Source of the DNA: Sediminibacterium sp. Gen4
Lineage (GTDB): Bacteria; Bacteroidota; Bacteroidia; Chitinophagales; Chitinophagaceae
Assembly (NCBI GenBank): GCA_013391385.1
Contig: JACBFI010000008.1
Span: 1 to 64,000, forward strand
Direction of reading: 5' to 3'
Length of the DNA stretch: 64,000 nt
Shown: in pieces, positions 103-54,050 of the stretch
Layout: each line of letters starts with the position of its first letter
Numbering within the stretch: the stretch's first letter is position 1
The notes under the pieces: model-generated
Databases searched by the model: none
What the model saw: the letters and a program-made list of their open reading frames with translations, nothing else
Told to the model about the DNA's origin: nothing
Program-made: the position numbers and the translations under genes

Positions 103-157
103 GGCTACAAGCTACAAGTGAATATCTTGCAGCTTCTAGCTTGTGGCTTGCAGCGCA
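103..157. repeat. Word-repeat hairpin element, class D (GCTACAAGCT)
   Basis: GCTACAAGCTACAAG on the left faces CTTGCAGCTTCTAGCTTGTGGC on the right, giving an imperfect inverted repeat made of reiterated short words. It lies in the spacer upstream of bamD. A second copy with the same vocabulary is at 27921-28022. No gene was found in 1-258. Confidence 0.55.
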
Positions 158-241
158 TAACCTTCAGCCAATTTTTGTGCTTTTCTTAACTCCCTGATAA
201 TCAATTCCTCAATTCAAGTTTCTAAATTGCCCATAATTAAC

Positions 242-249
242 TAATTTTG
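242..249 (+). promoter_or_regulatory. Possible -7 box for bamD
   Basis: TAATTTTG fits the Bacteroidota -7 consensus TAnnTTTG and lies 9 bases before the bamD ATG. The nearest upstream TTG (227-229) is too close for a normal -33 element, so this is weak. Confidence 0.3.
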
Positions 250-258
250 CCAACTTGT

Positions 259-1083
259 ATGAATAGGATCGTTGTCTTTTTATTGGCTGCTGGTTTACTG
301 GTATCGTGTTCGAATAAGTTCTCAAAGGTTTTGAAGAGCAAGGATTACGAGTACAAATACAAAATGGCTGAACAGTATTATGCCAAGAAAGATTATACGA
401 AAGCACAAGTGCTCTTTGAAGACATTTTTCCTTACGTAAAAGGTACTGCCCGTTATGAGGACATGTATTACAAGTTCGCTTATTCCTATTATTACCAGAA
501 CGATTTCATGAATGCTGAAAATCTGTTCAAGAGTTTTGTAGAGAATTTCCCGAACAGTACCAAAGGTGAGGAGTGCGATTACATGCGTGCGTATTGTTAT
601 TTCAGACAATCGCCCAAGATCGATTTGGATCAGACCAGTACGAATAAGACCATGCAGTTGATGCAGGCTTTTATCAATACACACCCTAGTTCTACTCGGG
701 TACAGGAAGCAACGGATATCATTGATAAGTGCAGAGAGAAACTGGAAGCAAAAGAATTTAAAAGTGCGCAGTTGTATTATAACTTAGGTTTTTACAAAGC
801 GGCTGCTATTGCTTTTGGAAATGTATCGGATAATTTTCCGGATTCTAAGAAAGCAGATGAATACAAGCTTCAAGTGATCAAATCTTATTTCCGTTATGCA
901 GAGATGAGTTATGAAGAAAAGCAGATAGAGCGTTTTCAGAAAGTGATCGAAGAATGTGAGGATTTTTCAGACCGATATGCAGATAGCAAGTATCTGGAAG
1001 AGGTCAACAAATTGAAATTACAATCAACAAATTATATTAAAAACCAGAAAAATGAGCAAGCTAAGAAGGCAAATGAGCGCTAA
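259..1083 (+). CDS. bamD: Outer membrane assembly lipoprotein BamD
   Basis: This 274-residue protein is the BamD/YfiO lipoprotein of the beta-barrel assembly machine, which folds outer-membrane proteins at the periplasmic face of the outer membrane. It has a short signal peptide ending in a lipobox (LLVSC), so Cys is acylated after cleavage. TPR-like helical repeats rich in Tyr, Phe and Ala follow, with YYAKKDYTKA and AENLFKSFVENFP typical of the family. The open frame extends upstream to a TTG at 247, but the ATG at 259 starts the signal peptide directly and is preferred. The gene overlaps rpoZ, and the bamD-rpoZ-coaBC-DUF4835 order is common in Bacteroidota, which supports the call. Confidence 0.92.
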   Translation: MNRIVVFLLAAGLLVSCSNKFSKVLKSKDYEYKYKMAEQYYAKKDYTKAQVLFEDIFPYVKGTARYEDMYYKFAYSYYYQNDFMNAENLFKSFVENFPNSTKGEECDYMRAYCYFRQSPKIDLDQTSTNKTMQLMQAFINTHPSSTRVQEATDIIDKCREKLEAKEFKSAQLYYNLGFYKAAAIAFGNVSDNFPDSKKADEYKLQVIKSYFRYAEMSYEEKQIERFQKVIEECEDFSDRYADSKYLEEVNKLKLQSTNYIKNQKNEQAKKANER

Positions 1084-1396
1084 TACCGCTAGTGTGGTTG
1101 AAACCAAAAGCCTGATCTCTATTAAAGAGAAAACAGGTAATCTGTATGAATCAATCGCCATTATTGCGCGCAGAGCTAACCAAATCAATGTTTCATTGAG
1201 AGAAGAGCTGCACAATAAACTGGAAGAGTTTGCCAGTCATACAGACAGTCTGGAAGAGATCCATGAGAACAAAGAGCAGATCGAGATCTCAAGAGCTTAT
1301 GAGAAAATGCCTAATCCTGCTATTCTGGCAACTCAGGAATTCATGGAAGACAAGATCTATTACAGAAAGAACAATGATAACGATCTGTTCAGATAA
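1052..1396 (+). CDS. rpoZ: RNA polymerase omega subunit
   Basis: This small protein (114 residues from 1052, or 107 from the ATG at 1073) matches the Bacteroidota form of RpoZ, which helps assemble and stabilise RNA polymerase. The core GNLYESIAIIARRANQI is the recognisable omega segment. It is followed by an acidic, helical tail ending in an Asn/Asp-rich stretch. The start overlaps the end of bamD by 11 or 32 bases depending on the ATG, which suggests translational coupling. The start at 1073 has a purine-rich AAGAAGG upstream and gives a typical N-terminus, so it may be the real one. A strong terminator follows. Confidence 0.85.
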   Translation: MSKLRRQMSANTASVVETKSLISIKEKTGNLYESIAIIARRANQINVSLREELHNKLEEFASHTDSLEEIHENKEQIEISRAYEKMPNPAILATQEFMEDKIYYRKNNDNDLFR

Positions 1397-1426
1397 GATC
1401 GTATCCCGGTATAATTTTATGAAAAG

Positions 1427-1452: not shown

Positions 1453-1483
1453 GTTACTTTGAGGGGAGATAGGTGAAATGTCA

Positions 1484-1620: not shown

Positions 1621-1624
1621 AAAC

Positions 1625-4090: not shown

Positions 4091-4101
4091 TATTGCAGGC
4101 T

Positions 4102-4803
4102 ATGAATAAAGTATTTGCAAGTGCAGAAGCAGCGATACAGGATATACAAGATGGAGCAACGCTGATGCTGGGCGGATTTGGATTGAATGGGATTCCTGAA
4201 AATACCATTGCTGCATTGGTAAAAAAAGGAGTGAAAGAACTAACCTGTATTTCCAATAATGCAGGTGTAGATGATTTTGGTCTGGGTTTACTCTTGAAGA
4301 CCCGGCAGATCAAAAAAATGATGAGTAGTTATGTGGGGGAGAATGCAGAGTTTGAAAGACAGCTGTTGAGTGGTGAATTGGAAGTAGATCTGATTCCGCA
4401 AGGAACTTTGGCAACACGTATTCAGATGGCGGGAATGGGTATCCCTGCATTTTTTACTCCAGCAGGCTATGGAACGGAGATCGCAGAAGGAAAAGAAGTA
4501 CGTGTATTCAATGGGAAGCCGCATCTCATGGAAATGGCGTTACATGCAGATTTCGCTATTGTGAAAGCATGGAAAGGGGATACTTTAGGAAATCTCGTAT
4601 TCAGAAAAACGACACGTAATTTTTCTACTTCTATGGCAAAAGCAGGCAACATCACCATCGCAGAAGTTGAACAGCTCGTTCAACCCGGCGAATTAGATCC
4701 TGATGAGATTCATGTTGCAGGTGTATACGTGCATCGAATCTTTGAAGGAGCGAATTATGAGAAGCGAGTAGAAAGAAAAACAGTTAAATTAAGTGAAAAG
4801 TGA
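4102..4803 (+). CDS. scoA: 3-oxoacid CoA-transferase subunit A
   Basis: The 233-residue alpha subunit of a succinyl-CoA:3-ketoacid CoA-transferase, which moves CoA between succinate and acetoacetate in ketone-body or short-chain acid use. The N-terminal MLGGFGLNGIPENTI and the PQGTLATRIQMAGMGIPAFFTP segment are typical of the type I CoA-transferase A chain. A TTG at 4093 is also in frame but the ATG at 4102 is preferred. The last codons, GAA AAG TGA, lie inside the class A repeat element that follows, so the repeat supplies the stop. The catalytic subunit scoB follows after an 87-base gap. Confidence 0.92.
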   Translation: MNKVFASAEAAIQDIQDGATLMLGGFGLNGIPENTIAALVKKGVKELTCISNNAGVDDFGLGLLLKTRQIKKMMSSYVGENAEFERQLLSGELEVDLIPQGTLATRIQMAGMGIPAFFTPAGYGTEIAEGKEVRVFNGKPHLMEMALHADFAIVKAWKGDTLGNLVFRKTTRNFSTSMAKAGNITIAEVEQLVQPGELDPDEIHVAGVYVHRIFEGANYEKRVERKTVKLSEK

Positions 4804-4876
4804 AAAGTGAAAGGTGAAAGGTGAAAAGAAGAAATTATCTTTTACAACCGTTTCACTTTTCACCTTTCACTTTTCG
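4794..4876. repeat. Word-repeat hairpin element, class A (GTGAAA)
   Basis: Tandem GTGAAAAG/GTGAAAGG words on the left are complementary to CTTTTCAC/CTTTCAC words on the right. Bases 4802-4819 and 4858-4875 form a perfect 18-base inverted repeat around a 38-base loop. The element contains the scoA stop codon and fills the scoA-scoB gap, so it may set the ratio of the two subunits. Confidence 0.8.
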
Positions 4877-9600: not shown

Positions 9601-9976
9601 TATCAATGCAGCTACAAATGATATGTTAGCAGCACCAAAATCAATACTGGAAAAAGCCTATGCATTGATGCAAGAGTTGAATAGGATCGGTATTCAGCTC
9701 AATGGTGATCAATCAGTAGCAAGAAGAGAATTTGAAACCGTACCATCTATTAATGGAAGAATAGGAGATGTTGAGGGCGGTATTTGGAATTCTACATCTA
9801 TGATTACCGAAACATTCAAAAAAGATTATGCAATCGCTTCTAAAGGATTGACAACTGTTCTAACTGCCATGCGAAAACTAGATACTGAGATCAAGGCATT
9901 GGAAAAAGAACTGGATCTGAATAAAGCACCTTACACACCGGGTAGATGGCCTGAGTGGGAGGGAGGTGAAAAGTGA
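6692..9976 (+). CDS. Large secreted BNR/sortilin-type beta-propeller protein
   Basis: The 1094-residue product has a signal peptide ending near AFAQ (about residue 23). Many Asp-box type repeats follow (SEDGGKTWK, SVDGGQTWN, TTDGGTTWK, SRDKGASWE, TDDRGNSWK, SNNGGQEWT), marking a VPS10/sortilin or BNR-like multi-bladed propeller over about residues 30-740. The rest is a beta-rich stretch followed by a helical tail near the C-terminus. The family is often annotated as glycosyl hydrolase, but no catalytic residues can be assigned here. It is probably periplasmic or outer-surface. No sorting domain is evident at the C-terminus. The stop codon lies in a class A repeat (GAA AAG TGA), as in scoA. 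Confidence 0.8.
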   Translation: MKMLLRSVMLSLTYFLFLSAFAQNKTSGVEWNAGTFSNLKFRSIGPAVTSGRIADFAVNPANTSEYYVATAAGGVWKTTNHGVTFQPVFDAQGSYSIGCVTIDPNNSNVVWVGSGENNNQRSVSYGDGVYKSEDGGKTWKNMGLKNSEHIAEIIVDPTNSNIIYVAAYGPVWNEGGDRGVYKSVDGGQTWNLIKSVSAYTGCNDLVMDPRNPNVLYAAFHQRMRKVFTYIGGGPESALYKTTDGGTTWKKIEGGFPSGELGRIGLAISPVNPDVLYTVIEAKDNKGGIYLSRDKGASWEKRSGYATSGNYYQEITCDPVDVNRIFITDVYYKVSDDAGKSVYNLGEINKHIDNHAIWIDPTDTDHLMVGCDGGIYETWDFAKSWDFKSNLPVTQFYKVATDNAYPFYSVHGGTQDNLSLGGPSRTTSANGIVNADWYITSIGDGFETQVDQSNPDIIYAQSQYGGLVRFDRKSGEYLSIKPSEGENEPAYRWNWDAPLLISQHDNARLYFGANKLFRTDDRGNSWKLISPDLTRQVDRNKFEVMGKIWSVDAIAKNGSTDIFGQLTTIAESKFNQNMIWVGTDDGLIQLTIDGGANWTKFDNLPGVPPMSYVHQIIASLHDVNTAYVCFNQHRNGDFKPYVLKTTDAGKTWKPIQSNLPHRGSVYTIAEDHIDRDLLFVGTEFGVFFSNNGGQEWTQLKGGLPVAAVRDMEIQRRENDLVIATFGRGFYILDDYSVLRNFKKETLNKDAVIFPVKESLMFIERYPLGLRDKGHLGSSYFSTPNPSVGAVFTYYVKDDSKKLRDLRLEQEKAKGEKGEKVYYPSMDSLRMEDSQPDPYLLFTIRDKAGDVVRHLKAPAKKGLQKIVWDFRYATPAPVLGRVTLAPDQLFGGEEKGHLAMPGEYTVSLSKYEDGKLTELAGPVTFTCKLLQQSSLPVNMEENVKFYKQVAALRKAASATTDIFNNMRSRLNNINAATNDMLAAPKSILEKAYALMQELNRIGIQLNGDQSVARREFETVPSINGRIGDVEGGIWNSTSMITETFKKDYAIASKGLTTVLTAMRKLDTEIKALEKELDLNKAPYTPGRWPEWEGGEK

Positions 9977-10000
9977 AAGGTGAAAAGTGAAAGGTGAAAA
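9967..10000. repeat. Class A word repeat (single arm)
   Basis: GTGAAAAGTGAAAG is repeated twice in tandem with no complementary arm nearby. It includes the stop codon of the propeller gene and runs straight into the terminator hairpin at 9999-10072. Confidence 0.7.
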
Positions 10001-10072
10001 GCTGTGTTACTCTGTGCCTAACTCTGCGTAACTCTGTAGTAAAATAAACCACAGAGTTGCACAGCTTTTTTT
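9999..10072 (+). terminator. Compound hairpin terminator (class E words)
   Basis: Outer arms AAGCTGTG (9999-10006) and CACAGCTT (10060-10067) enclose inner arms AACTCTGT (10030-10037) and ACAGAGTT (10051-10058), followed by a run of T. The interior reiterates CTCTG words (ACTCTGTG, ACTCTGCG, ACTCTGTA). It lies between convergent genes. Confidence 0.7.
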
Positions 10073-10078
10073 ATAAAG

Positions 10079-10116
10079 CAGACATCAGAAATCAGACATC
10101 AGAAATCAGACATCTG
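10079..10116. repeat. Class B word repeat (14-base unit)
   Basis: CAGACATCAGAAAT is repeated in tandem about 2.6 times. It is the right-arm vocabulary of the class B hairpins without its partner. It lies just downstream of the 3' end of the minus-strand methyltransferase gene. Confidence 0.7.
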
Positions 10117-11479: not shown

Positions 11480-12049
11480 ATGGAAGAGCAGGCAACAACA
11501 CAGACACCCGTGAACGAAGAAACACAAGCCAATATTGATATCAATGCCGATGAGAATGCAGCAGGTACTTCTCATTTGAATGAGCCGGTAGCAGAGGAAA
11601 ATCAGTTGGAAAAACTGCAGGCTGAGTTACAAGAGCAGAAGGATAAATACCTCCGTCTCATGGCTGAGTTCGACAATTTCAGACGTCGTACTGCCAAAGA
11701 GCGTATTGAGCTGATTCAAACAGCCGGGAAAGATGTGATTGTTTCATTGCTGGATGTGTTGGATGATTGTGATCGTGCAGAGAAACAATTGCAAAGCAAT
11801 GATGATATCGCTGTGCAAAAAGAGGGTATTCAATTGGTCTTCAATAAACTTCGTTCTAACCTTCAATCTAAAGGAGTGAAAGCCATGGAAAGTATCCATG
11901 CAGAGTTTGATGTAGAAAAACACGAAGCCATTACAGAAATTCCAGCTCCAACTGAAGAGTTAAAAGGAAAAGTACTGGATGAAGTCATGAAAGGATACTA
12001 CCTCAATGATAAGATCATTCGTTTTGCAAAAGTGGTGGTAGGGAAATAA
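11480..12049 (+). CDS. grpE: Nucleotide exchange factor GrpE
   Basis: The 189-residue co-chaperone that releases ADP from DnaK. An acidic, low-complexity N-terminus (about 1-45) leads to a coiled coil (LQAELQEQKDKYLRLMAEFD) with the core signature FDNFRRRTAKER, and a C-terminal beta domain ends KIIRFAKVVVGK. The open frame begins at 11441, but the ATG at 11480 is the natural start. It is followed by dnaJ with a class B hairpin in the gap. dnaK is not in this window. Confidence 0.95.
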   Translation: MEEQATTQTPVNEETQANIDINADENAAGTSHLNEPVAEENQLEKLQAELQEQKDKYLRLMAEFDNFRRRTAKERIELIQTAGKDVIVSLLDVLDDCDRAEKQLQSNDDIAVQKEGIQLVFNKLRSNLQSKGVKAMESIHAEFDVEKHEAITEIPAPTEELKGKVLDEVMKGYYLNDKIIRFAKVVVGK

Positions 12050-12054
12050 TGTTT

Positions 12055-12111
12055 GATGTCTGATGTAGGATGTCTGATTTGAATTATATCAGACATCCTA
12101 CATCAGACATC
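12055..12111. repeat. Word-repeat hairpin element, class B, perfect 24-bp stem
   Basis: Bases 12055-12078 (reiterated GATGTCTGAT/GTAGGATGTC words) are perfectly complementary to 12088-12111, with a 9-base loop. The element begins 5 bases after the grpE stop and ends 15 bases before the dnaJ ATG. It also forms an open frame in phase with dnaJ, from an ATG at 12070. Confidence 0.85.
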
Positions 12112-12126
12112 CTAAATTCAAGAAAG

Positions 12127-15116: not shown

Positions 15117-15659
15117 TTATGCTTCGTCTTTGAGCTGATAGATTTCGCGAATATTCCTACCCAAACCATCATAATCCAGTCCATAACCAAGTACAAAACG
15201 GTTAGGGATGGTAAAACAACAATAATCGATCTGTACCGGATACTTCATGGCATCAGGCTTGTGTAGTAGTACGGCCACTTTTAAAGAGAGTGGTTGTTGA
15301 TTGACAAGTTGTGGCAGAAATTCACTGAGTGTTTTACCGGTATCAATAATGTCTTCCAATATTACAACATGTCGGTTATTGATCTCTGTATCTAATCCAA
15401 TGGCAGTAATAACATGTCCGGTTGATTTGGTACCCTTGTAAGAAGCCAATTTAATAAAGCAGATCTCAGCTTCAATTGATAGCTCTTTGAACAAATCAGC
15501 AGAAAACATGAAAGATCCATTCAAGATGGAAATGAACAAAGGTTTTTTACCCTGATAATCTTTATCCAATTGAGCTGCCAGTTCTTTGATCTTTTCATGG
15601 ATCAATGTTTCCGGTAAATAGGGAATGAATTCTTTGTCATGAACTTTGATTACCTGCAT
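15117..15659 (-). CDS. hpt: Hypoxanthine phosphoribosyltransferase
   Basis: A 180-residue purine salvage enzyme that converts hypoxanthine (and usually guanine) with PRPP to IMP or GMP. The PRPP-binding loop ILEDIIDTGKTL contains the paired acids Glu102-Asp103, and LNGSFMFSADL holds the N-terminal flexible-loop region. The C-terminal VLGYGLDYDG carries the base-contacting segment. It lies 7 bases after the stop of the glucosaminidase gene on the same strand, so the two are probably in one operon. Confidence 0.93.
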   Translation of the reverse strand: MQVIKVHDKEFIPYLPETLIHEKIKELAAQLDKDYQGKKPLFISILNGSFMFSADLFKELSIEAEICFIKLASYKGTKSTGHVITAIGLDTEINNRHVVILEDIIDTGKTLSEFLPQLVNQQPLSLKVAVLLHKPDAMKYPVQIDYCCFTIPNRFVLGYGLDYDGLGRNIREIYQLKDEA

Positions 15660-15666
15660 GGATCTG

Positions 15667-16839
15667 TTATTTTGTAGATTTCTTTTTTGTTCCTTTATTG
15701 ATCTCTGTTGGGGAGCGTAACAATAATTTTTGTCCGGCAGAAAGCTGACTGTCTTTTTTCAATTTATTATACTCTAATAAACTATCCATTCTAATGCCTT
15801 CTTTCTGACAAATATCATGTAGATTTTCACCTGCTGTTACTTCATGAAAATCAGAAGCACCTCTTTTTTGTTTTTTCTCGATGAACAGTACCCGATCCAT
15901 ATCAAGGATGTCCATTTCTGTTAATTCATTGAACTCAAAAAGTTTGCTCAAGCTAATATCATATTGATGTGCCAATGCCAGTAAAGAAGTACCCTCTCTG
16001 GCATGTACAGCTTTTGTGTGATTGATGGTAAATACGCCTTCAGGATACGTAACTATTTTCTTTTCTTCAGCAACAGTGGTTGTTTTTCTATCCGCCTCTT
16101 CTATGGGCTTTATTTTTTCAACACTAGTATTAGCTGTCTGAAGCTCTGCTTGTGGAGCCTCTGTTTCCTCTTTTACTAACGTTGCTTTTTGAGTATCATT
16201 TTTAATAGCAGATTCATTTTTGATGGCAGGTGCAACTGTTTGTTCAGTAACCACATTGGCGGCTGTTGTATTTTGTACCGTTGCTACAATGGGGGCCGTT
16301 TTATTTTCCATCATGGCGATGCCCTGAATGGTGTATTGATTCAATTGATAGTCTTCAATGACGCGTAATAATTTTTCAGGATAGGTTTTATTGGTGGCAT
16401 AACCTGCTCTTTTCAATCCGTATGCCCAACCGGTAATATCGGTTAGTTCCAATTTAAAGAGAAAAGAATAGTGGGGACGTGTCTTTAAAAAATCAGAATG
16501 ATCGCGGTAAGATTCTTCCGCTGATTTGTATACACGGAAACATTCACCTTTGGCATCATCATCCTGGAATATTTTGTCTCCGGTCCATTCGGTTTTACAT
16601 TTGATACCAAAATGATTATTAGCATTTTTAGCCAGCGTACTTTCACCAAACTGTGATTCCAGAATACCCTGTGCCAATTTGATGGAAGCAGGAACACCCG
16701 TACGGATCATTTCCTGAATGGCAAGGTCTTTATAGCTATTGATATAAGCTTCTGTTCTTTCTTTCACACCGGCAGTCTGTGCAACTGAACTTAACAGTGC
16801 AGCGTTTAGCAGTGTGATCAATACGAAGATTTTTTTCAT
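15667..16839 (-). CDS. Glucosaminidase with LysM repeats
   Basis: A 390-residue exported murein hydrolase. A signal peptide (about 1-20) precedes a GH73/FlgJ-type N-acetylglucosaminidase domain (about 28-175) with ILESQFGESTLAKNANNHFGIK holding the catalytic Glu region. A low-complexity Ala/Thr/Glu-rich linker (about 180-275) leads to two LysM peptidoglycan-binding modules (about 283-325 and 335-380). It probably trims peptidoglycan during growth or division. The start overlaps the stop of the upstream O-methyltransferase gene by 4 bases. Confidence 0.87.
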   Translation of the reverse strand: MKKIFVLITLLNAALLSSVAQTAGVKERTEAYINSYKDLAIQEMIRTGVPASIKLAQGILESQFGESTLAKNANNHFGIKCKTEWTGDKIFQDDDAKGECFRVYKSAEESYRDHSDFLKTRPHYSFLFKLELTDITGWAYGLKRAGYATNKTYPEKLLRVIEDYQLNQYTIQGIAMMENKTAPIVATVQNTTAANVVTEQTVAPAIKNESAIKNDTQKATLVKEETEAPQAELQTANTSVEKIKPIEEADRKTTTVAEEKKIVTYPEGVFTINHTKAVHAREGTSLLALAHQYDISLSKLFEFNELTEMDILDMDRVLFIEKKQKRGASDFHEVTAGENLHDICQKEGIRMDSLLEYNKLKKDSQLSAGQKLLLRSPTEINKGTKKKSTK

Positions 16840-17503: not shown

Positions 17504-17612
17504 GATAGCTGATGGTTCATGGCTTATGGTCGCCGATAGCGGATAGTTCATAGCTAATGGCTTATGGAATATGGACCATTTGCTATGAACTATCAGCTAT
17601 GAACTATAAGCT
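17504..17612. repeat. Word-repeat element, class C variant (GATAGTTCATAGC)
   Basis: Words such as GGCTTATGG, GATAGTTCATAGC and ATAGCTAATGG are repeated with variation. GATAGTTCATAGC (17542-17554) pairs perfectly with GCTATGAACTATC (17582-17594). It fills the gap between the symporter gene end (17611) and the methyltransferase start, both on the minus strand. Confidence 0.65.
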
Positions 17613-19059
17613 ACTTATCCCCTTTCTTCGAAATCAGCATCAACCCTATAAAAGTAATGGCTCCATTGATGATCAGGAGTTCCAATCCAATTTCGAAAGA
17701 TCCGAATATTTGTTTTTGAAATTTATCCAACATCAGACAGATCAATGGAGATGCGATACAAATAATAGGCACCAGTTTATCATTCACTGAACGTTTCAAT
17801 AAAATACCGAAAGTAAAGAGACCTAATAATGGTCCATAAGTATAAGCAGCTACTTTTAGTATGACGCCAATCATACTGCTGCTATCAATCCATTTATACA
17901 CCATCACAAACAACAAGAATATTCCGGCAAATACCAGGTGTACCCTTTGTCTGATTTTTTTCTTTTGTACATCTGTCCAGTCTTCTCTTCTTTGTAATCC
18001 AATGATATCAATACAAAATGAAGAGGTCAATGCCGTGATGGCACCATCGGCACTGGGGAATAAGGCTGAGATCAGGGCTATGATGAATATCACAGATACC
18101 AAACTTGGCATATGGTTGAGTGCAATTGTAGGGAAGAGTTTATCTCCTGTTGCAGCTATTCCTTGTGCATCGGCATACAAGTGTAAGAGTCCACCAAGGA
18201 ATAAGAACAAACCGATGACCGCCAACATAATAAATCCTAAAGTCACTACATTCTTTTGTGAGTCTTTCAAAGTCTTCACAGAAATGTTTTTTTGCATCAT
18301 CTCTTGATCCATACCAGTCATGGTAATGGTTACAAAAGCACCTGCAAGAATTTGCTTCAGGAAAAAGAAACGACTTTCGGGTTCAGTGAAGAATATTTTT
18401 GAATAGCCTTTATCGCCCATGGCAGCAAAGCTTTCAGAGATACCCATATCCAGCTGACTCAAAATATACACTACGCAAATCACCAGTCCAATCAACATAC
18501 AGGAAGTCTGTAAGGTGTCGGTCCATACGATTGTTTTTACACCTCCTTCATACGTATACAATAAGATCATCGCCAGAATGATGAGGGTGGTTGCCCAGAA
18601 CGGTACGTGAAAACTTTCTAGAATTGCATCTTGTAAAATGCGCACTACTAAATACAGGCGTGCAGTGGCACCCAGTGTTCGGGATAAGATAAAAAACGAT
18701 GCGCCCGTTTTATAGGAATTCACTCCCAAGCGAGAGCTTAGATAGTTGTAGATGGAAGTGAGATTAAGTTTATAATACAATGGTAATAATACAAATGCTA
18801 TCACCATATAACCGATCAGGTAGCCCAGTGTGATCTGCATATATGCAAATGATTCTTTGGCCACAGCTCCGGGAACACTTACAAAAGTGACACCACTCAA
18901 TGAAGTACCGATCATACCAAATGCCACCAGCATCCAGTTACTATTTCTGTTACCGATAAAGAAAGAATCGTTGTTACTATTTCTTCCGGTATACCAGGCA
19001 ACTACCAATAAGATTAAAAAGTAAATGATGACAAATGAGAACAACAGGAGTGGGGACAT
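17611..19059 (-). CDS. Sodium:solute symporter (SSS family)
   Basis: A 482-residue inner-membrane transporter with about 13 hydrophobic segments. The N-terminus has the SSS hallmark FFIGNRNSNWMLVAFGMIGTS in a shorter form (NRNSNWMLVAFGMIG). Later segments such as MTGMDQEMMQKNIS and ALISALFPSADGAITALTSS are typical of the family. The solute is unknown; sugars, proline, pantothenate and sialic acid are all possible. The ATG at 19059 is chosen over the TTG at 19065. The C-terminal stop lies at the edge of a class C repeat. It is divergent from the LOG-family gene. Confidence 0.87.
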   Translation of the reverse strand: MSPLLLFSFVIIYFLILLVVAWYTGRNSNNDSFFIGNRNSNWMLVAFGMIGTSLSGVTFVSVPGAVAKESFAYMQITLGYLIGYMVIAFVLLPLYYKLNLTSIYNYLSSRLGVNSYKTGASFFILSRTLGATARLYLVVRILQDAILESFHVPFWATTLIILAMILLYTYEGGVKTIVWTDTLQTSCMLIGLVICVVYILSQLDMGISESFAAMGDKGYSKIFFTEPESRFFFLKQILAGAFVTITMTGMDQEMMQKNISVKTLKDSQKNVVTLGFIMLAVIGLFLFLGGLLHLYADAQGIAATGDKLFPTIALNHMPSLVSVIFIIALISALFPSADGAITALTSSFCIDIIGLQRREDWTDVQKKKIRQRVHLVFAGIFLLFVMVYKWIDSSSMIGVILKVAAYTYGPLLGLFTFGILLKRSVNDKLVPIICIASPLICLMLDKFQKQIFGSFEIGLELLIINGAITFIGLMLISKKGDK

Positions 19060-23655: not shown

Positions 23656-23754
23656 CTGCTGAAGGGTACTCTATAAAGATACTAAACTCGGTCTCTTCGA
23701 TTGCTTTGTCTGTTTGAGTGAAATCCCGTCCTCGTGGCGGGATTTCTGTTTTGG

Positions 23755-23874
23755 TCGATGGTCCATAGTCCATAGCCCATGGAGGATATCATATAGATCA
23801 TAGTTTCTTGCGCATAATCTTAAAACTATACGCAATAAACTATATGCCATGGACCATGGACTATGGTCTATGTT
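23755..23874. repeat. Word-repeat hairpin element, class C (CCATAGTCC)
   Basis: Left words ATGGTCCATAGTCCATAGCCCATGG face right words CCATGGACCATGGACTATGG as an imperfect inverted repeat between convergent genes. The right arm continues into the last codons and TAG stop of the DUF2490 gene (23861-23863). No gene lies between 23656 and 23860. Confidence 0.75.
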
Positions 23875-24550
23875 CTCTCCGATGTAACTCAAAATAATAC
23901 CCGATCTGAATAAAGTCCCTACCTGTTTCATCGTTGATTTTGTAATCAAACTGGTGAAGGAATCCTAATTGAAGTGTTGTTGTTGCAGAAGTTTTGTATT
24001 GAAGACCTAGCGCCATTCTGTTTCTCTCAAAAAAAGGTTCTCCATCTGTGAGGAAGATTTCATTATTGAAATATACTTGCCATGGTTTTGTTTGTGATGT
24101 TGATGAACCGAAAGGATAGGAGACACCGAATCTATACCTGAATCTATTGCGATAACCATTCGAAGTGAATCGTAACTCTGCACGATAGCGTTGCTCTATT
24201 TTAAAATTCCCTAATGATTGTGTCAATAATACCTGTGGCCAAATTCTGAATTCGTCATTGTTCTTTGGTTTCACAAAATTACCACCCTCTTTATAGGTTT
24301 GATAAGACCCCGCGGCTAATGACAACATTAAATTATTATTCGCTTTGTAATTAACTCCTCCTTTGTACTCATAATAATGAAACTGATTGTACAATTTCAG
24401 AGAACGAATCTGACCTTCACCAAATACACTCCATTTTTGATTAATACTATAACGGAGGTTCAAGATATTCCAAGTGCCGATATCAAGCCCCTGTGCTTTG
24501 AGAACTAACGATGTAACAAAAAGTACTAAAACAAGGAATAGTTTTTTCAT
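23861..24550 (-). CDS. DUF2490 outer membrane protein
   Basis: A 229-residue predicted outer-membrane beta-barrel. The signal peptide is MKKLFLVLVLFVTSLVLKAQ. Alternating strands follow with typical DUF2490 features (WTILNLRYSINQKW-like start, FKIEQRYRAELRF, NRFRYRFGVSYPF, NNEIFL) and a final FDYKINDETGRDFIQIGYYF. The function is unknown. The frame also opens to 24562 but the ATG at 24550 is used. The last residues (about HRREHRP) and the stop codon come from the class C repeat, beyond the normal final beta strand, so the C-terminus may have been altered by the repeat. Confidence 0.78.
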   Translation of the reverse strand: MKKLFLVLVLFVTSLVLKAQGLDIGTWNILNLRYSINQKWSVFGEGQIRSLKLYNQFHYYEYKGGVNYKANNNLMLSLAAGSYQTYKEGGNFVKPKNNDEFRIWPQVLLTQSLGNFKIEQRYRAELRFTSNGYRNRFRYRFGVSYPFGSSTSQTKPWQVYFNNEIFLTDGEPFFERNRMALGLQYKTSATTTLQLGFLHQFDYKINDETGRDFIQIGYYFELHRREHRP

Positions 24551-24595
24551 GTCAATACTCACAAAATTATTAGTAAATCACCTTACAACTCACCT

Positions 24596-24636
24596 AGTGT
24601 AACTCCGTGTTCAACTCTGCGTAACACTGTGGTTAT
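24596..24636. repeat. Class E word repeat (single arm)
   Basis: GTGTAACTCCGTG, TCAACTCTGCG and TAACACTGTGG repeat one word with changes, as in the terminator at 9999-10072. It lies between two minus-strand genes. Confidence 0.5.
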
Positions 24637-24643
24637 ACCAATA

Positions 24644-25946: not shown

Positions 25947-26007
25947 TGCCACTGAAAGCACAGAAATACACAGAATCATTCAGTGGATTTCTGTGCTTTC
26001 AGTGGCA
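25947..26007. repeat. Perfect 21-base inverted repeat
   Basis: Bases 25947-25967 (TGCCACTGAAAGCACAG...) are exactly complementary to 25987-26007 around a 19-base loop that itself contains ACACAGAAT and CAGTGG words. It is upstream of the lipoprotein gene and could be a terminator of the kinase gene or a class E relative. Confidence 0.75.
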
Positions 26008-28022: not shown

Positions 28023-28123
28023 TAAATCCTACTGCTTTCCCAAGAATGAATTTTCTATATGCCTCCCAGAAAGGATATTTGTAAGGCGAGATAAAGCAAG
28101 TTTGGTAAGCTTTTAGGTTCTGA

Positions 28124-28147
28124 AAATCAAGAAATCAAAAAATCAAA
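28124..28147. repeat. Tandem octamer AAATCAA(G/A)
   Basis: Three contiguous 8-base units: AAATCAAG, AAATCAAA, AAATCAAA. It lies directly upstream of, and in frame with, the recG N-terminal coding sequence, immediately after a TGA at 28121-28123. The word resembles the AGAAATCAG words of class B elements. Confidence 0.7.
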
Positions 28148-34030: not shown

Positions 34031-35053
34031 ATGCGTATTCGTGTCTGGATAATAATGATGGGTTTTGTATTTAGTTTGCTTACTGTGCATGTGAGTGGAC
34101 AGGGATTGAATTTTTCTCAATACTTCAATACGCCCATGTTGGTGAATCCGGCGAATACCGGATTTAATCCTGACTTTGATTATCGAATTGGGGGTAATTA
34201 TCGTAACCAATGGGCCAGCGTCGGTACTCCTTTTCGAACCATGAGTTTGTGGGGAGATACCAAATTATTTGGTAACCGTTTTGAGAATGGATGGATGGGA
34301 GTGGGGGCTGCTTTATACAGTGATAGAGCAGGTAGTGGTAATTTAGTAGCTACCAATGGCTATGCCAGTGTGGCTTATCATCAAATGTTGGGATACAATA
34401 GTTTGCTGAGTGGTGGATTTTCAGTAGGGTTCATCAATAAACGGATTGATATCAGTAAACTCAATTTCGATAACCAATGGAACGGACAATTTTTTGATAT
34501 TTCCATTCCTTCCAATGAGCCATTCTTGTTTAGTCAAACCACTTTTGTTGATCTTCAGGTAGGTATGAACTATGCCTATTTTGCTTCCGATAATTTTTAT
34601 TTCAATTTAGGGGTGAGCGCGCAACATGTGAATCGTCCACGTGAAAGTTTCTTATCACCTACAACTGTTGATGCCAGATTGAATCCACGCTATACCGGTT
34701 TTTTAAATGCCAGTATCAAGTTCGAAGATCTATGGATCGTGAACCCCAATATCTATGTCAGTAAAATGGGCAATGCATGGGAAACCGTATTGGGTTTTAA
34801 TGCCAATCGTAATCTGAGTGGCGATGGTGAACAACAAATGATTTTAGGCTTATATTATCGCCATAAAGACGCAGTAATTCCAATGGTAGGTTACCAGGTA
34901 AATGATACACGATTTACATTTAATTATGATGCCACAGTTTCTAATTTAGGCAACATCAATGGATACCGCGGTGCCTATGAAATCTCCATCATTAAAAGCG
35001 GCATCTTCTCCAATAGCAGTAATGCAGTGAAATGTCCGACGGTGAGATTTTAG
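34031..35053 (+). CDS. PorP/SprF family type IX secretion outer membrane protein
   Basis: A 340-residue outer-membrane protein with a signal peptide (about 1-25, ending VSGQG). The family start is LNFSQYFNTPMLVNPANTGF, then YRIGGNYRNQWASVGTPFRT and repeated strands to the end. PorP/SprF proteins help secrete or anchor substrates that carry type B sorting domains, and their genes usually follow such a substrate gene, as here. The ATG at 34031 is used instead of the GTG at 34025. A class A hairpin starts within the stop codon (TAG, 35051-35053). Confidence 0.9.
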   Translation: MRIRVWIIMMGFVFSLLTVHVSGQGLNFSQYFNTPMLVNPANTGFNPDFDYRIGGNYRNQWASVGTPFRTMSLWGDTKLFGNRFENGWMGVGAALYSDRAGSGNLVATNGYASVAYHQMLGYNSLLSGGFSVGFINKRIDISKLNFDNQWNGQFFDISIPSNEPFLFSQTTFVDLQVGMNYAYFASDNFYFNLGVSAQHVNRPRESFLSPTTVDARLNPRYTGFLNASIKFEDLWIVNPNIYVSKMGNAWETVLGFNANRNLSGDGEQQMILGLYYRHKDAVIPMVGYQVNDTRFTFNYDATVSNLGNINGYRGAYEISIIKSGIFSNSSNAVKCPTVRF

Positions 35054-35110
35054 GTGAAAAGTGAAAGGTGAAACGAAGATTATTCACCTTTCACTTTTCA
35101 CCTTTCACTT
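35052..35110. repeat. Word-repeat hairpin element, class A, perfect 21-bp stem
   Basis: Bases 35052-35072 (GTGAAAAGTGAAAGGTGAA words) pair exactly with 35083-35103 around a 10-base loop. It starts within the PorP/SprF stop and ends just before the stop of the convergent coiled-coil gene (35116), so it could end transcripts from both sides. Confidence 0.85.
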
Positions 35111-35115
35111 CTTCA

Positions 35116-36039: not shown

Positions 36040-37338
36040 ATGAAATACTTGCCGCTTGATCCCAATCTATTCATAATCAATCGTAAGCGTTTTATAAAAG
36101 CCATGTTACCCAACAGCATCGCCATTTTTGTCAGCAATGATGAATGGCCGATGAATGGCGACGCTTTACACAAGTTCAAACAGAACAGTAATCTGTATTG
36201 GCTGAGCGGCATTACCCAAGAAGACTCCATGGTGGTGCTATTCCCCGATTGTCCGGATCCGAAATACAGAGAAGTACTGGTACTGGTTCGTCCCAATGAA
36301 CTGAAAGAAAAATGGGACGGCAAAAGACTCCGCAAACAGGAGGCCACGGCTATTTCCGGGATCGCAACGATTGTTTGGCTTGACAGCATCGATGCCTTTT
36401 TACAAACATGGGTTCATTTAGCCGATAATGTGTATTTAGATACCAATGAAAACGATCGTAAAGCATCATTGATCAGAAGCAGGGATTATCGTTTTGTAGA
36501 TGAGATGAAGGAACGTTATCCATTGCATGTATATCATCGTACCGCTAAGATCATGAAATCTTTACGGGCTATCAAGACCAAAGAGGAAGTGGCAGTTTTG
36601 CAACAAGCGATCAATATCACTGATAACACTTTCCGTAGATTATTAGGGTTTATCAAACCCGGTGTTTTCGAATATGAGATCGAGGCGGAGATATTTCACA
36701 GTTTTTATAGTCAACGCGCTACCGGTCCCGCCTATGGAAGTATTATTGCGAGTGGCGACAGGGCCAGAATCCTGCACTATGTTTCCAATAACCAGGAATG
36801 TAAGGATGGAGAAATGGTACTGATGGATTTTGGTGCAGAGTATGGCGGATATTGCGCGGATCTCACCAGGACGGTACCCGTTAACGGTAAATTCACACGC
36901 AGACAAAAAACGGTTTACAATGCTTGTTTACATTTACACAATTATGCAAAGAGCATTTTAAAGCCGGGTATTTCGATTGTAGATTATACCGAAAAAGTAG
37001 GAGAGGAAGCCACACAACAGTTTTTGAAAATTGGGTTGCTGAGAAAAACGGAAGTGAAGAATGAAGATCCGGAGAACAGAGCATATCGCAAATACTTATA
37101 CCATGGAATATCCCATCATCTAGGTATTGATGTGCACGATCTCGGAACAAGAACAGCACCTATTCAAGCTGGAATGGTCTTTACAATTGAACCCGGTATC
37201 TATATTGAAGAAGAACAAATGGGTGTACGAATTGAGAATAATTTCTGGATTACTAAAAACGGCAATATCGACCTCATGAAAAATATTCCTATTACCGTGG
37301 AAGAGATTGAGGGGTTGATGAAGAAAATAAGTGAGTAG
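36040..37338 (+). CDS. pepP: Xaa-Pro aminopeptidase (aminopeptidase P)
   Basis: A 432-residue M24B metallopeptidase that removes N-terminal residues before proline. The N-terminal creatinase-like domain (about 1-170) is followed by the pita-bread domain. Its two-metal ligands lie in MDFGAEYGGYCADLTRT, HGISHHLGIDVHDLG, FTIEPGIY and GVRIENNF. The open frame reaches 35962, but the ATG at 36040 gives the usual start. The stop TAG (37336-37338) falls in a class C element that begins there. Confidence 0.92.
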   Translation: MKYLPLDPNLFIINRKRFIKAMLPNSIAIFVSNDEWPMNGDALHKFKQNSNLYWLSGITQEDSMVVLFPDCPDPKYREVLVLVRPNELKEKWDGKRLRKQEATAISGIATIVWLDSIDAFLQTWVHLADNVYLDTNENDRKASLIRSRDYRFVDEMKERYPLHVYHRTAKIMKSLRAIKTKEEVAVLQQAINITDNTFRRLLGFIKPGVFEYEIEAEIFHSFYSQRATGPAYGSIIASGDRARILHYVSNNQECKDGEMVLMDFGAEYGGYCADLTRTVPVNGKFTRRQKTVYNACLHLHNYAKSILKPGISIVDYTEKVGEEATQQFLKIGLLRKTEVKNEDPENRAYRKYLYHGISHHLGIDVHDLGTRTAPIQAGMVFTIEPGIYIEEEQMGVRIENNFWITKNGNIDLMKNIPITVEEIEGLMKKISE

Positions 37339-37387
37339 TCCATAGTCAATAGACCATGGTCCATGGACTATGGTCTATCAACCATAA
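37336..37387. repeat. Word-repeat hairpin element, class C
   Basis: TAGTCCATAGTCAATAGACC leads into a near-perfect palindrome centred on TCCATGGA; the stem has a single G-T mismatch in about 15 pairs. Bases 37349-37382 are identical to 51110-51143. The element supplies the pepP stop and ends 6 bases before the pssA start. Confidence 0.85.
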
Positions 37388-38157: not shown

Positions 38158-38402
38158 CCTATAACGTGCAGATCAAAGTAATGCCATTAAAAGACCTTCT
38201 CGATCCACAAGGTAAAGCAGTGCTGGGTGGACTACAAAACCTCGGTTTAGGAGCCGTGAGTGATGTACGAGTAGGAAAACACATTACGCTGCAGATTGAA
38301 GCTGCTTCAGAAGCAGAAGCCAGACAAATAGCCGAAGACGCCTCCAAAAAACTACTCGCCAATCCGGTAATGGAGTTTTATGAGATTGAAATGATAAATT
38401 GA
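38154..38402 (+). CDS. purS: Phosphoribosylformylglycinamidine synthase subunit PurS
   Basis: The 82-residue PurS subunit, which in multi-subunit bacterial FGAM synthases bridges PurQ and PurL in step 4 of purine synthesis. The family pattern is KDLLDPQGKAVLGGLQNLG and the beta-alpha-beta fold VRVGKHITLQIEAASEAEARQIAED. Its ATG overlaps the pssA stop (ATGA). PurQ and PurL are not nearby. The stop TGA adjoins a class B element. Confidence 0.9.
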   Translation: MTYNVQIKVMPLKDLLDPQGKAVLGGLQNLGLGAVSDVRVGKHITLQIEAASEAEARQIAEDASKKLLANPVMEFYEIEMIN

Positions 38403-38468
38403 TGATGTCGGATGTCTGATGTCTGATTTGAGCAATACATACATCAGACATCAGAAATCAGAAATCCT
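38401..38468. repeat. Word-repeat element, class B
   Basis: GATGTCTGATGT (38411-38422) pairs with ACATCAGACATC (38441-38452), flanked by further GATGTCGG/CAGAAATC words. It starts at the purS stop and reaches into the rsmI upstream frame; an ATG at 38419 lies in phase with rsmI. Confidence 0.75.
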
Positions 38469-41753: not shown

Positions 41754-41768
41754 TGCAAATAATAAAAG

Positions 41769-41805
41769 GAGGCTGGATCAAAAATCTGATCCAGCCTCTT
41801 TTTTT
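41769..41805. terminator. Bidirectional terminator, 11-bp stem
   Basis: GAGGCTGGATC (41769-41779) and GATCCAGCCTC (41788-41798), 8-base loop, T-run after and A-run before. It serves the convergent M1 peptidase and MFS genes. Confidence 0.85.
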
Positions 41806-41843
41806 ATACTATGGTCCATGGACCATAAGCCATAAGCTATCCC
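41806..41843. repeat. Class C word repeat, short
   Basis: ACTATGGTCCATGGACCATAAGCC carries the same TCCATGGA centre as the copies at 37336 and 51104. It lies against the MFS gene stop. Confidence 0.6.
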
Positions 41844-48242: not shown

Positions 48243-48243
48243 T

Positions 48244-48747: not shown

Positions 48748-48929
48748 AATTTTCTTGCTGATTTATCCCCATTTTCTAAAATTTATTTGCGTTTATTTGC
48801 GTTTTTAGAAAAAAAGTTGCAGTTTTATACAAGGGTTACAACTAATGTTTGTTAGTTTTAGGCGAGTTCAAGATTCAGTTAAACAACTTCTTATTAGGGT
48901 ATATGGGAGTTGTTGGTTGTTAAATGAAA

Positions 48930-48962
48930 AAAGCCATCCGTCTCAGGCGGATGGCTTTCTCT
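48930..48962. terminator. Intrinsic terminator, 11-bp stem
   Basis: AAAGCCATCCG (48930-48940) and CGGATGGCTTT (48948-48958) with a 7-base loop, A-rich before and T-rich after. It serves the permease/SRPBCC unit and the convergent queA. The rest of 48748-48978 holds nothing else I can identify. Confidence 0.82.
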
Positions 48963-48978
48963 TTGAAAGTATAGGATG

Positions 48979-50895: not shown

Positions 50896-51103
50896 ACTAC
50901 TGAAAACCATTTATACATTCGCAGCCATATTGCTGTTCCATGTTGCTGCATCAGCACAAGAAGTTGCAGCTGAAAATGATGTGATGAGAAGTAATGGTAA
51001 GATATACGTAGTGATGGCAGTAGTACTTACGATCATTATCGGATTATTCATCTACCTAGCATCATTAGATAAAAAGATCAGTAAACTAGAAAAGAAAAGT
51101 TAA
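50888..51103 (+). CDS. CcmD-like small membrane protein
   Basis: A 71-residue protein with a signal-like N-terminus (ILLFHVAASA), one membrane segment (IYVVMAVVLTIIIGLFIYLA) and a Lys-rich tail. Size, topology and position right after ccmC fit the CcmD family, which holds heme with CcmC/E. A class C hairpin follows immediately after the TAA. Confidence 0.7.
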   Translation: MNKLLKTIYTFAAILLFHVAASAQEVAAENDVMRSNGKIYVVMAVVLTIIIGLFIYLASLDKKISKLEKKS

Positions 51104-51156
51104 TAGTCCATAGACCATGGTCCATGGACTATGGTCTATCAACTATCAGCTAAACC
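51104..51156. repeat. Word-repeat hairpin element, class C
   Basis: TAGTCCATAGACCATGG leads to a near-perfect palindrome centred on TCCATGGA, then ACTATCAGC words. Bases 51110-51143 equal 37349-37382 exactly. It begins directly after the CcmD-like stop codon. Confidence 0.85.
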
Positions 51157-51186
51157 ATAAAAGTCAAAAACAAAAACGATTAGCTC

Positions 51187-52608: not shown

Positions 52609-52624
52609 TAGTACCGATCTATTT

Positions 52625-52692
52625 TAGATGTCGGATATCGGATGTCTGATTTGAATTTTACGTTCAATCAGACATTAGATATCCGATATTTT
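52625..52692. repeat. Word-repeat hairpin element, class B (GATATCGGATGTC)
   Basis: A long imperfect inverted repeat of GGATATCGGATGTCTGATTTGAA-type words fills the gap between the convergent dehydrogenase and nuclease-like genes, ending against the latter's stop codon at 52693. Confidence 0.75.
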
Positions 52693-53127
52693 TTATTGGT
52701 AGGAGGGAATGGTATTCAAAGTAGTAAACTGATTATTTTCTTTTCCGATTCCTCGGGTTTCATTTCCATTGGTAACAATCAAGTAATCTGCTTGAACGAT
52801 GGTTTGATAACGCAGTAATTGTTGCATGACAGATTCATTGATGGGGACATTCATTTCCTTACATTCAATCAATAGCCAAGGATAATCATTTTTATATACA
52901 AGAATATCAAAGCGCTTTTTTAATTCTCCGATTTGTATTTCTTTCTCGATGGCTATCAATGATGCAGGATAATGCATCACTTGCAGCAGGTACTGAAGAA
53001 AGTTTTGTCGCACCCATTCTTCCGGTGTTAGCCGGATCCATTTTTTCCTCAAAGGATCAAAAATATACTCCTTCTCTTCTCTGGTTTCTATTTTGAAAGG
53101 ATAGGAGGGGTAGCTTATTTTAATCAT
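52693..53127 (-). CDS. HSDR_N-domain nuclease-like protein
   Basis: A 144-residue protein matching the type I restriction enzyme R N-terminal domain (HSDR_N_2). The PD-(D/E)xK-like core is RFDILVYKNDYPWLLIECK, with the Asp and Glu-x-Lys positions intact. The N-terminal half (EEKEYIFDPLRKKWIRLTPEEWVRQ) is typical of the family. No methylase, specificity or helicase genes lie nearby, so it is not a restriction system by itself. The role is unknown. Confidence 0.8.
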   Translation of the reverse strand: MIKISYPSYPFKIETREEKEYIFDPLRKKWIRLTPEEWVRQNFLQYLLQVMHYPASLIAIEKEIQIGELKKRFDILVYKNDYPWLLIECKEMNVPINESVMQQLLRYQTIVQADYLIVTNGNETRGIGKENNQFTTLNTIPSYQ

Positions 53128-53213
53128 ACTACTTGCAAATAGAATTGATTTTTTGTATTTTAGCCAATTAGCCTGATCAAAGATAACCGGCAGTCCATCA
53201 AAATAGTCATGTT

Positions 53214-53984
53214 ATGAAAACGAAAGCGGAAATTGTGAACAATTGGCTCCCCCGATATACAGGAGAGAAATTAGAGAACTTTGGTAAGTATGTTTTACTG
53301 ACCAATTTCAGCAACTATGTAACCATGTTTGCGAAATGGAATAAAGTAAAAGTGATTGGGGCTGACAGACCCATGCAATGTGCAACCGCCAACGGTATCA
53401 CCATTATTAATTTTGGAATGGGTAGTCCGGGTGCAGCCACTATCATGGATCTTTTAACTGCCATCGCCCCTGAAGCGGTACTATTCTTGGGGAAATGCGG
53501 TGGGTTAAAAAGAAGAAATAAGATTGGAGATCTGATTTTGCCTATTGCCGCTATCAGAGGAGAGGGTACTTCCAATGATTATTTCCCTCCTGAAGTTCCT
53601 GCTATGCCTGCGTTTGCGCTGCAGAAAGCTATTTCAACTACCATCAGAGATTATAAAGTAGATTATTGGACAGGTACTGTTTATACCACCAACAGAAGGG
53701 TTTGGGAACACGATGATGCATTCAAAGCCTATCTTACCAAAGTACGTGCTTATGCGATTGATATGGAAACAGCCACCATTTTTACGGTCGGATTCTTTAA
53801 TAAAATTCCAACAGGTGCATTACTCTTAGTAAGCGATCAACCCATGATACCCGAAGGAGTAAAGACAGAAGCCAGTGATAAAAAAGTAACTGCCGACTAC
53901 GTAGAAAGACACCTCAAGATCGGTATCGACTCCCTCAAACAACTCATCAATAAAGGACAAACAGTGAGACACCTTAGGTTTTGA
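53214..53984 (+). CDS. amn: AMP nucleosidase (short type)
   Basis: A 256-residue nucleoside phosphorylase-fold enzyme that splits AMP to adenine and ribose 5-phosphate. It shows GMGSPGAATIMDLL, FLGKCGGLKRR and AIDMETATIFTVGF, and the substrate-binding region VSDQPMIPEG. It lacks the large N-terminal domain of the E. coli enzyme, as is usual in Bacteroidota. The stop TGA lies at the edge of a class B hairpin. Confidence 0.9.
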   Translation: MKTKAEIVNNWLPRYTGEKLENFGKYVLLTNFSNYVTMFAKWNKVKVIGADRPMQCATANGITIINFGMGSPGAATIMDLLTAIAPEAVLFLGKCGGLKRRNKIGDLILPIAAIRGEGTSNDYFPPEVPAMPAFALQKAISTTIRDYKVDYWTGTVYTTNRRVWEHDDAFKAYLTKVRAYAIDMETATIFTVGFFNKIPTGALLLVSDQPMIPEGVKTEASDKKVTADYVERHLKIGIDSLKQLINKGQTVRHLRF

Positions 53985-54050
53985 TGTATGATGTAAGATG
54001 TCGGATGTCTGATGTCGGATATATTAAATCCGACATCAGACATCCGACAT
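53982..54050. repeat. Word-repeat hairpin element, class B, perfect 23-bp stem
   Basis: Bases 53998-54020 and 54028-54050 are exact complements (GATGTCGG words) around a 7-base loop; ATGTATGATGTAAG leads in from the amn stop. It lies between convergent genes and ends 6 bases before the ccmB stop, so it can end both transcripts. Confidence 0.88.

Follow-up and report, generated by a model that had tools for sequence, protein, structure and literature searches.

The window, as the whole stretch of 64,000 nucleotides analysed here is called, is part of contig C57 in the genome of Sediminibacterium sp. Gen4 (G000, the own genome), a 3.5-Mb draft in 59 contigs. Its spacers carry a class of inverted repeats, termed heptad hairpins, each made of a degenerate array of seven-base words that runs from a stop codon and, in most cases, faces a second array of that word, in inverted orientation, ahead of the next gene. 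The neighbouring genes, called by a simple longest-open-reading-frame scheme with approximate start positions, include coaBC, whose protein shows 82% identity to the Sediminibacterium goheungense DSM 28323 protein and 97% to its counterpart in one metagenome-assembled genome (MAG), as expected of a Sediminibacterium-like host within the Chitinophagaceae. Rfam returned no match above gathering score in the window.

The relatives compared are G100 (locus L005), G101 (L006), S. goheungense DSM 28323 (G102, L007), a Sediminibacterium MAG (G103, L008), G105 (L016), Chitinophagaceae bacterium DXS (G106, L035), Terrimonas ferruginea (G107, L042), G108 (L044) and S. soli (G109, L019). The closest is G100, with 93.8% nucleotide identity over 47.6 kb of the window; S. 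goheungense is 78% identical where it aligns.

Elements of the window

The longest perfect stems occur in four hairpins. Two are built of GTGAAAR words: one at 4791-4875 with an 18-bp stem (4802-4819/4858-4875) and a loop at 4827-4850, the other at 35052-35108, in a convergent spacer, with a 21-bp stem (35052-35072/35083-35103). A GATGTCT hairpin (12048-12118) has a stem of 24 bp (12055-12078/12088-12111), and a GATGTCK hairpin (53982-54050), which overlaps a stop codon and has another word in G100, has one of 23 bp (53998-54020/54028-54050). The inverted repeats thus lie where the preliminary description of this DNA had placed them, and the four stems that it quoted are exact. Perfect stems of at least 14 bp form eight clusters in the window (arm starts no more than 160 bp apart), compared with a mean of 0.3 and a maximum of 2 in 20 second-order Markov sequences. 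Stems of at least 10 bp are in slight excess (29, against a Markov mean of 19.4 and a maximum of 29), so the weaker stems on the original list are not individually significant. That list had counted about 20 spacers; hairpin-bearing spacers are indeed present, but the number is generous, with 17 arrays over the array threshold, often two per spacer, and some listed hairpins (e.g. 12048-12118) below it.

Strand is assigned to only two of the window's elements, the arrays at 9964-10001 and 10075-10114. The first element, read in the sequence as a GCTACAAG/CTTGTGGCTTGCAGC hairpin, sits at 103-154 and bears out the extent claimed for the set. Between two plus-strand genes, the GTGAATG heptad hairpin at 1472-1622 finishes its 3ʹ arm a few nucleotides ahead of the ATG of the downstream gene, coaBC. 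On the plus strand, a GTGAAAR array (9964-10001) overlaps the stop codon of a plus-strand gene, and a GATGTCT/GATTTCT array (10075-10114, minus strand) is sense to the converging minus-strand gene. Further along are an ATAGC/TATGG heptad hairpin (17505-17613), a CCATAGT hairpin lying 3ʹ of a terminator-like hairpin in a convergent spacer (23752-23876) and a GCTACAAG/GCTGCAC hairpin (27923-28016). A period-8 AAAATCAA array comes next (28123-28147), and words like its own make up two changed hairpins in G100. The remaining elements are a CCATAGT/CCATGGT palindromic array (37336-37378), a GATGTCK hairpin right after a small open reading frame (38398-38466; a GATTTCTT-type hairpin in G100), a spacer with a terminator-like hairpin and then a short CCATGG/CATAAGC palindrome (41754-41843), a CCATAGA/CCATGGT hairpin (51095-51152) and a GATGTCGGATATC hairpin in a convergent spacer (52628-52689).

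Words of the type CTCTGTG/CACAGAG occur at 9997-10069, 24563-24643 and 25947-26007, two of the three in hairpins, and lack period 7. They probably form a separate class. The CTCTGTG(T)AAC family, at first listed within the same vocabulary, yields no period-7 array and is therefore kept apart here, as is the stem at 25947-26007.

Period, vocabulary and placement

The repeat unit is seven bases. In 464 kb of the own genome there are 96 arrays of period 7, 67 of period 14 and 0-5 at any other period, and a first-order Markov control gave no arrays at periods 6, 7 or 8. Across the window and 80 coaBC loci, searched at periods 4-15, the counts are 88 at period 7, 54 at period 14, 17 at period 8 and 0-7 at the others. 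Tandem Repeats Finder assigns units of 7 and 14 to most window arrays. The words of 6-14 bases first proposed are accordingly replaced by a unit of seven, of which 14 is the double, and a minor period-8 class. The arrays are unevenly distributed: a period-7 array is missing from 56 of the 80 coaBC loci, and density ranges from 4 arrays in 100 kb of S. soli to 110 in 221 kb of DXS.

The 96 own-genome arrays are described by 25 canonical words, several of which are variants of one another, and the commonest include no G-run word and no TAACTGA. As had been noted from the window, words are common to distant loci. The pattern GTGAAAR x3 has 101 matches in the own genome, compared with 3 for its reversed-pattern control, and GATGTCK x3 has 71, compared with 0. 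GTGAAAR x3 had any match in 7 of 99 other genomes, in 6 of which the reversed control matched as well; GATGTCK x3 had none in 59 other genomes. S. goheungense contains 646 matches to GTSARTR x3 (control 0).

Placement was counted in spacers of 25-700 bp, pooled over seven genomes that include related ones and are not fully independent. Of 146 convergent spacers, 41 carry an array, as do 100 of 457 codirectional ones and 22 of 183 divergent ones. Eight of the 96 own-genome arrays were called inside genes, where the underlying reading frames may be wrong. In the 100 codirectional spacers with arrays, the median gap from stop codon to first array is 5 nt; the gap is 10 nt or less in 62, of which 29 extend into the gene, compared with 34% for random placement in the spacer. 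The gap from array to next start has a median of 33 nt and is 10 nt or less in 28 of the 100. Arrays within 40 nt of a stop codon are mostly purine-rich when read outward from the gene (89 versus 29), as are those near a start codon (46 versus 21).

Arrays often supply the stop codon of the upstream gene. Of the 101 arrays that abut a gene end (gap of 8 nt or less), 45 extend into the stop codon or last codons. TAA is the stop in only 28 of these 101 genes, compared with 395 of 648 other gene ends (p = 2e-9, a value made optimistic by the pooling of related genomes). The gene at 4093-4803, for example, closes in the window with array-encoded residues; in the more distant loci L016 and L010, it stops right after the same leucine codon. 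The spacer that follows this orthologue in L016 contains a hairpin of CGCAAAGGCGC-type words, a non-heptad repeat at a place occupied by heptads in Sediminibacterium.

Hairpin architecture and word change in relatives

Neighbouring arrays of the same word are inverted in 51 cases and direct in one (G000, G100, G102 and G103); 18 more pairs combine different words. Among 85 hairpins, 73 have a purine-rich 5ʹ arm; in a second, differently defined and overlapping set (n = 73), the figures are 59 versus 10, with 4 ties. Stop codons favour the 5ʹ arm in 53 of the 85 hairpins and the 3ʹ arm in 23, with 9 equal. The pattern of stops on the 5ʹ arm holds for most GTGAAA, GATGTC and CCATAG hairpins. As a universal rule of three-frame stops on the 5ʹ arm and none on the 3ʹ arm it is false for GCTACAAG, for GTCAAAA words and for 8 of 13 DXS hairpins. 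Stop-codon polarity is consequently dropped as a cause of the hairpins and kept as a reason for their tolerance. The two arms of a hairpin also resemble each other beyond their common word: the match to the own partner beats that to other same-word arms in 24 of the 32 hairpins (out of 73) that could be compared (p = 0.008).

Hairpin sites are retained among relatives. Where a window spacer has a strong inverted repeat, the orthologous spacer has one in 7 of 8 cases in G100, 4 of 7 in S. goheungense and 7 of 9 in G103; where the window spacer has none, the figures are 1 of 17, 2 of 19 and 2 of 19 (these counts include a few non-heptad repeats). The words at such sites can differ. At 35054-35115, the window has GTGAAAR, G100 has GTGAGTA, G103 has a CCATGG type and S. 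goheungense has a weaker repeat (score 11). At 53985-54055, the GATGTCK of the window is matched by GATCTTT/GATTTCTT in G100 and by GATGTCA-type words in S. goheungense and G103.

A wider comparison with G100 began from 40 elements; 11 lacked an orthologue in the compared stretches and are not counted. Syntenic copies that are identical apart from ordinary drift, the outcome that the preliminary description had set against mobility, describe one part of the remainder and not the other: of the 29 orthologous elements, 19 keep the same word, nine keep the array with a different word (0-2 shared nine-mers, called first by eye and then by the nine-mer check) and one is absent. The absent element is the period-8 array C35:8813, which is not among the nine; C35:121520, counted as the same, does not reach the array threshold in its G100 copy. 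Around the nine changed elements, the flanking sequence is 84-98% identical, so independent drift of the ordinary kind does not account for the different words. Five of the nine exchange one GTGA/GTSA-type word for another, two exchange GAT-type words and two bring in a GTTGACA hairpin.

Single events of two further kinds were found. The loop at 4827-4850 has, in G100, the reverse complement of the sequence found in the window and in G101. Additionally, a GTTGACA hairpin with the same loop occurs twice in G100, at C90:31.5 kb and C90:75.7 kb (44 kb apart; 83 bp, 94%), where the own genome has a GTCAATT-type hairpin and a GTGAAAR hairpin, respectively. With up to 3 mismatches allowed, the loop pattern of this copied hairpin has no match in six other genomes.

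Relation to known repeats and maintenance of the hairpins

The short tandemly repeated repetitive (STRR) heptanucleotides of cyanobacteria are heptanucleotide tandem arrays, like the heptad arrays, and we know of no description of them as hairpins with changing words. REP elements are intergenic palindromes, often at gene 3ʹ ends; their sequence is fixed and GC-rich, and a Y1 transposase is linked to them. Neither a fixed REP-like sequence nor a linked Y1 gene was found here (sampled loops and six Y1 regions, respectively). Intergenic heptamer arrays of GGGAATC in Xanthomonas and GGGGA(T/C)T in Nostoc are under-represented between divergent open reading frames, and the source gives 70 and 75 convergent inverted pairs for Xanthomonas and few inverted pairs for Nostoc, and mentions Calothrix heptanucleotides (PMC4692102). 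The Xanthomonas arrays resemble the heptad hairpins in period, placement, orientation rule and convergent inverted pairs. In the passages compared, however, both genera have one G-rich word type, read as G-quadruplexes, with no word change at fixed sites. Sediminibacterium, by contrast, has a large set of words that lack G-runs, stems that are almost perfect and words that differ between relatives. In Beggiatoaceae, Cyanobacteria and some Bacteroidetes, TAACTGA repeats are mostly intergenic, provide stops in three frames and overlap upstream stop codons, and other heptamers have been noted in spacers of two Bacteroidetes (PMC4679880). Period seven, three-frame stops and stop-codon overlap are common to TAACTGA and the heptad hairpins. 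TAACTGA, however, is a single word that in the main genome mostly stands directly ahead of start codons, and it is almost never inverted, with 169 direct sets and one indirect set.

By these comparisons, the heptad arrays share with known heptamer arrays a period of exactly seven and, in pooled counts, an intergenic position, scarcity between divergent genes and closeness to sense-strand stops. They do not consist of a single G-quadruplex-capable or TAACTGA word; they have many. Heptamer intergenic repeats are thus already known, and what is new is the presence of many words in one hairpin architecture, with word change at fixed sites. No account of such hairpins was found in the literature searched, a weak negative since subscription literature lay mostly outside the search. 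Heptamer repeats have so far been reported word by word and explained separately, as G-quadruplexes or as translation control. Many words in one architecture, changing within about 6% nucleotide divergence, separate shape from sequence, and the old questions of why the unit is seven bases and whether the repeats are selected or self-driven become directly testable in this clade.

The reading preferred here, to which a probability of about one half is given, is that a DNA hairpin at gene ends is kept up by three DNA-level processes: slippage, template switching from arm to arm, and exchange between loci. The proposal concerns the processes; the period, anchoring, pairing, shared words and word change are the observations described above. 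Slippage in seven-base steps would make and resize arrays. Template switching between arms would let one arm copy the other and would sometimes flip the loop, and occasional copying or gene conversion between loci would change and spread words, so that each genome would acquire its own vocabulary. Since seven is a multiple of three plus one, a stop-bearing word gives a stop in every frame; an array can thus overwrite a stop codon yet still provide one, which may be why arrays build up at gene 3ʹ ends. Arm homogenisation and spacer inversion have been reported as products of polymerase template switching between inverted repeats (PMC8604942), a process that can create and maintain hairpins (PMC8794818). 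Both traces occur here, homogenised arms in 24 of 32 hairpins and an inverted spacer between relatives in one case (4827-4850). The events that these sources describe, however, are mutations in yeast genes and RNA genes and not a genome-wide class of periodic hairpins. The earlier suggestion of repeated seeding or expansion of one kind of element agrees with the shared grammar (period 7, arms mostly inverted, anchoring at gene ends), the genome-wide words, the word change at fixed sites and the one copied hairpin.

Several observations weigh against maintenance by these processes. In seven of the nine changes, a core is common to both words (GTGA/GTSA in five, GAT in two), so concerted change at the site itself and import from a different locus are equally possible. 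Moreover, length differs in 13 of the 19 same-word elements, and in only 4 of these is the difference an exact multiple of seven; a kept position with a changed sequence is also the outcome of selection for a hairpin. Only one loop inversion and one dispersed hairpin copy were found, and the variable units of the two arms follow a weakly similar order at best (mean 18.6 versus 16.8 permuted, median p 0.33, 72 hairpins). The architecture is also not uniform: in DXS, the inverted-pair rule fails (8 inverted, 15 direct and 34 different-word pairs) and purine-first polarity is weak (7/13). Divergent spacers are not depleted in T. ferruginea (2/8 divergent, 2/9 convergent) or S. soli (2/22 and 0/21), and the codirectional share exceeds the convergent one in G103; the pooled placement counts, moreover, draw partly on related genomes. 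Furthermore, why the unit is seven bases has no explanation.

The strongest competing explanation, though rather unlikely, is that the hairpins are functional bidirectional terminators or mRNA 3ʹ-end stabilisers, in which the hairpin is selected and the word is free to turn over. Placement, the part of this earlier suggestion that stands, fits it well: arrays are anchored at stop codons, their pooled share is higher in convergent and codirectional than in divergent spacers, and hairpin sites are kept in relatives as words change. Additionally, there are two sites, 52609-52692 and 41754-41843, at which a heptad hairpin of another genome corresponds to a terminator-like hairpin in G103. The hairpins themselves fit it poorly. 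Selection on RNA pairing should favour G.U, but sense-strand mismatches in codirectional hairpins comprise 32 G.U and 33 A.C, a balance that counts against an RNA role, although a mild excess could be missed. A T-tract (6 of 8 T) follows the stem in only 2 of 85 hairpins and the median loop is 33 nt, with a detector that accepts arms as far as 250 nt apart; these features make them poor intrinsic terminators, a class defined by a short loop and a T-tract. Terminator-like hairpins also share spacers with heptads; in the 1397-1624 spacer upstream of coaBC, a conserved one precedes the heptad hairpin in 7 of 7 genomes compared. Nor are they depleted in heptad spacers (5 of 41 convergent spacers with heptads, 13 of 105 others); an anticorrelation of the two was sought and none was found, with a strict detector that yields few terminator-like hairpins. 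Some arms, moreover, abut start codons, where a stable RNA stem should presumably hurt translation. These poor terminator features despite a 3ʹ-end-like placement, together with the Rfam blank, lead us to prefer a self-maintaining DNA structure, again at about even odds, to a dedicated RNA element. Any role as a transcript-end boundary is unproven and would be secondary. Caution is also advised by the fact that compensatory-looking changes in bacterial hairpins need not imply RNA function.

An extended form of the self-maintenance reading, offered as speculation and itself doubtful, is that of a self-renewing gene-end structure, in which an activity working in seven-base steps rewrites the words on both sides of a spacer; shape would be inherited and sequence swapped within a genome-wide lexicon. 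If this were true, the same architecture in Xanthomonas, Nostoc and Chitinophagaceae would be one widespread process and not three curiosities.

It is improbable that the arrays serve as sites for a protein that binds DNA or RNA in a seven-base register. Tandem heptads would suit such a protein: binding of one CspB protein per heptamer has been reported (cited in PMC4679880), and that source records cold-shock, S1 or Csr proteins as proposed for the TAACTGA heptamers of Beggiatoaceae. However, a genome with many words, changed at fixed sites, is unlike one with the site of a single protein, and inverted arms with local co-variation would require an additional cause.

Non-autonomous mobile elements of the REP/RAYT or MITE type are very improbable. 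Words common to distant loci and the copied hairpin of G100 are what such elements would leave, and 18 of 20 genomes, 17 of them above the cut-off, carry Y1 transposase (PF01797) genes, with one such gene in the own genome. The Y1 evidence nevertheless lends no support to the mobility suggested earlier. Y1 counts show no visible relation to heptad content (1 each in G000 and G103, 1-3 in 8 of 10 genomes that are heptad-poor as judged from one locus of at most 21 kb each), and heptad hairpins flank none of the six Y1 regions read. No constant ends or core were seen, in a search that did not take in target-site duplications. Whole-element transposition was rejected after an all-against-all comparison of 74 loops of at least 14 nt and of elements with flanks, which gave one dispersed copy, that in G100. 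In the own sample, much beyond the heptads themselves is shared only by the nested CCATGG arrays, which are palindromic and share loops between loci, and by a closely spaced duplicate pair (C35:98.7 and 99.2 kb; 68 bp, 91%). A second repeat family, short palindromes of the form TCC..AGGACTCCT..GGA, lies beside heptad arrays at C35:83355-88233 and C35:98737-99307. DXS has several nearby or partial element matches, and its locus L142 (G106:C1:2550001-2570000) has a run of tandem units at 15502-16510 that match almost exactly over about 140-150 bp and each hold heptad words.

A templated writer, akin to a reverse transcriptase or telomerase, that adds heptads to broken ends whose joining gives W...Wʹ like fused telomeres, would suit the purine-first polarity (73/85), the same word on both sides, the nested symmetrical words and the genome-wide words, but is reduced to a minor and scarcely credible rival by the lack of any RVT_1 (PF00078) match in G000, G100-G103, G105 and G107, some of them incomplete drafts, by arms that co-vary locally beyond their common word and by the weak polarity in DXS. 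RVT_1 is present in DXS and in G108; the weak unit-order result does not argue against this kind of addition.

Three further observations concern the surroundings of the hairpins. In the own genome, the offset of C35 to G100:C90 differs on the two sides of about 20-79 kb, being about +12 kb on one and about -37 kb on the other. This points to a large insertion or rearrangement that distinguishes G000 from G100 there. A 231-nt convergent spacer at 48748-48978 holds no heptads and is strikingly conserved in G100, S. goheungense and G103; with its TTTATTTGCG repeats and no Rfam match, it is a candidate small RNA or regulatory region. Finally, small conserved open reading frames below the 100-aa cut-off lie at 38158-38418 and 50896-51186, and we take their products to resemble PurS and a CcmD-like protein, respectively.

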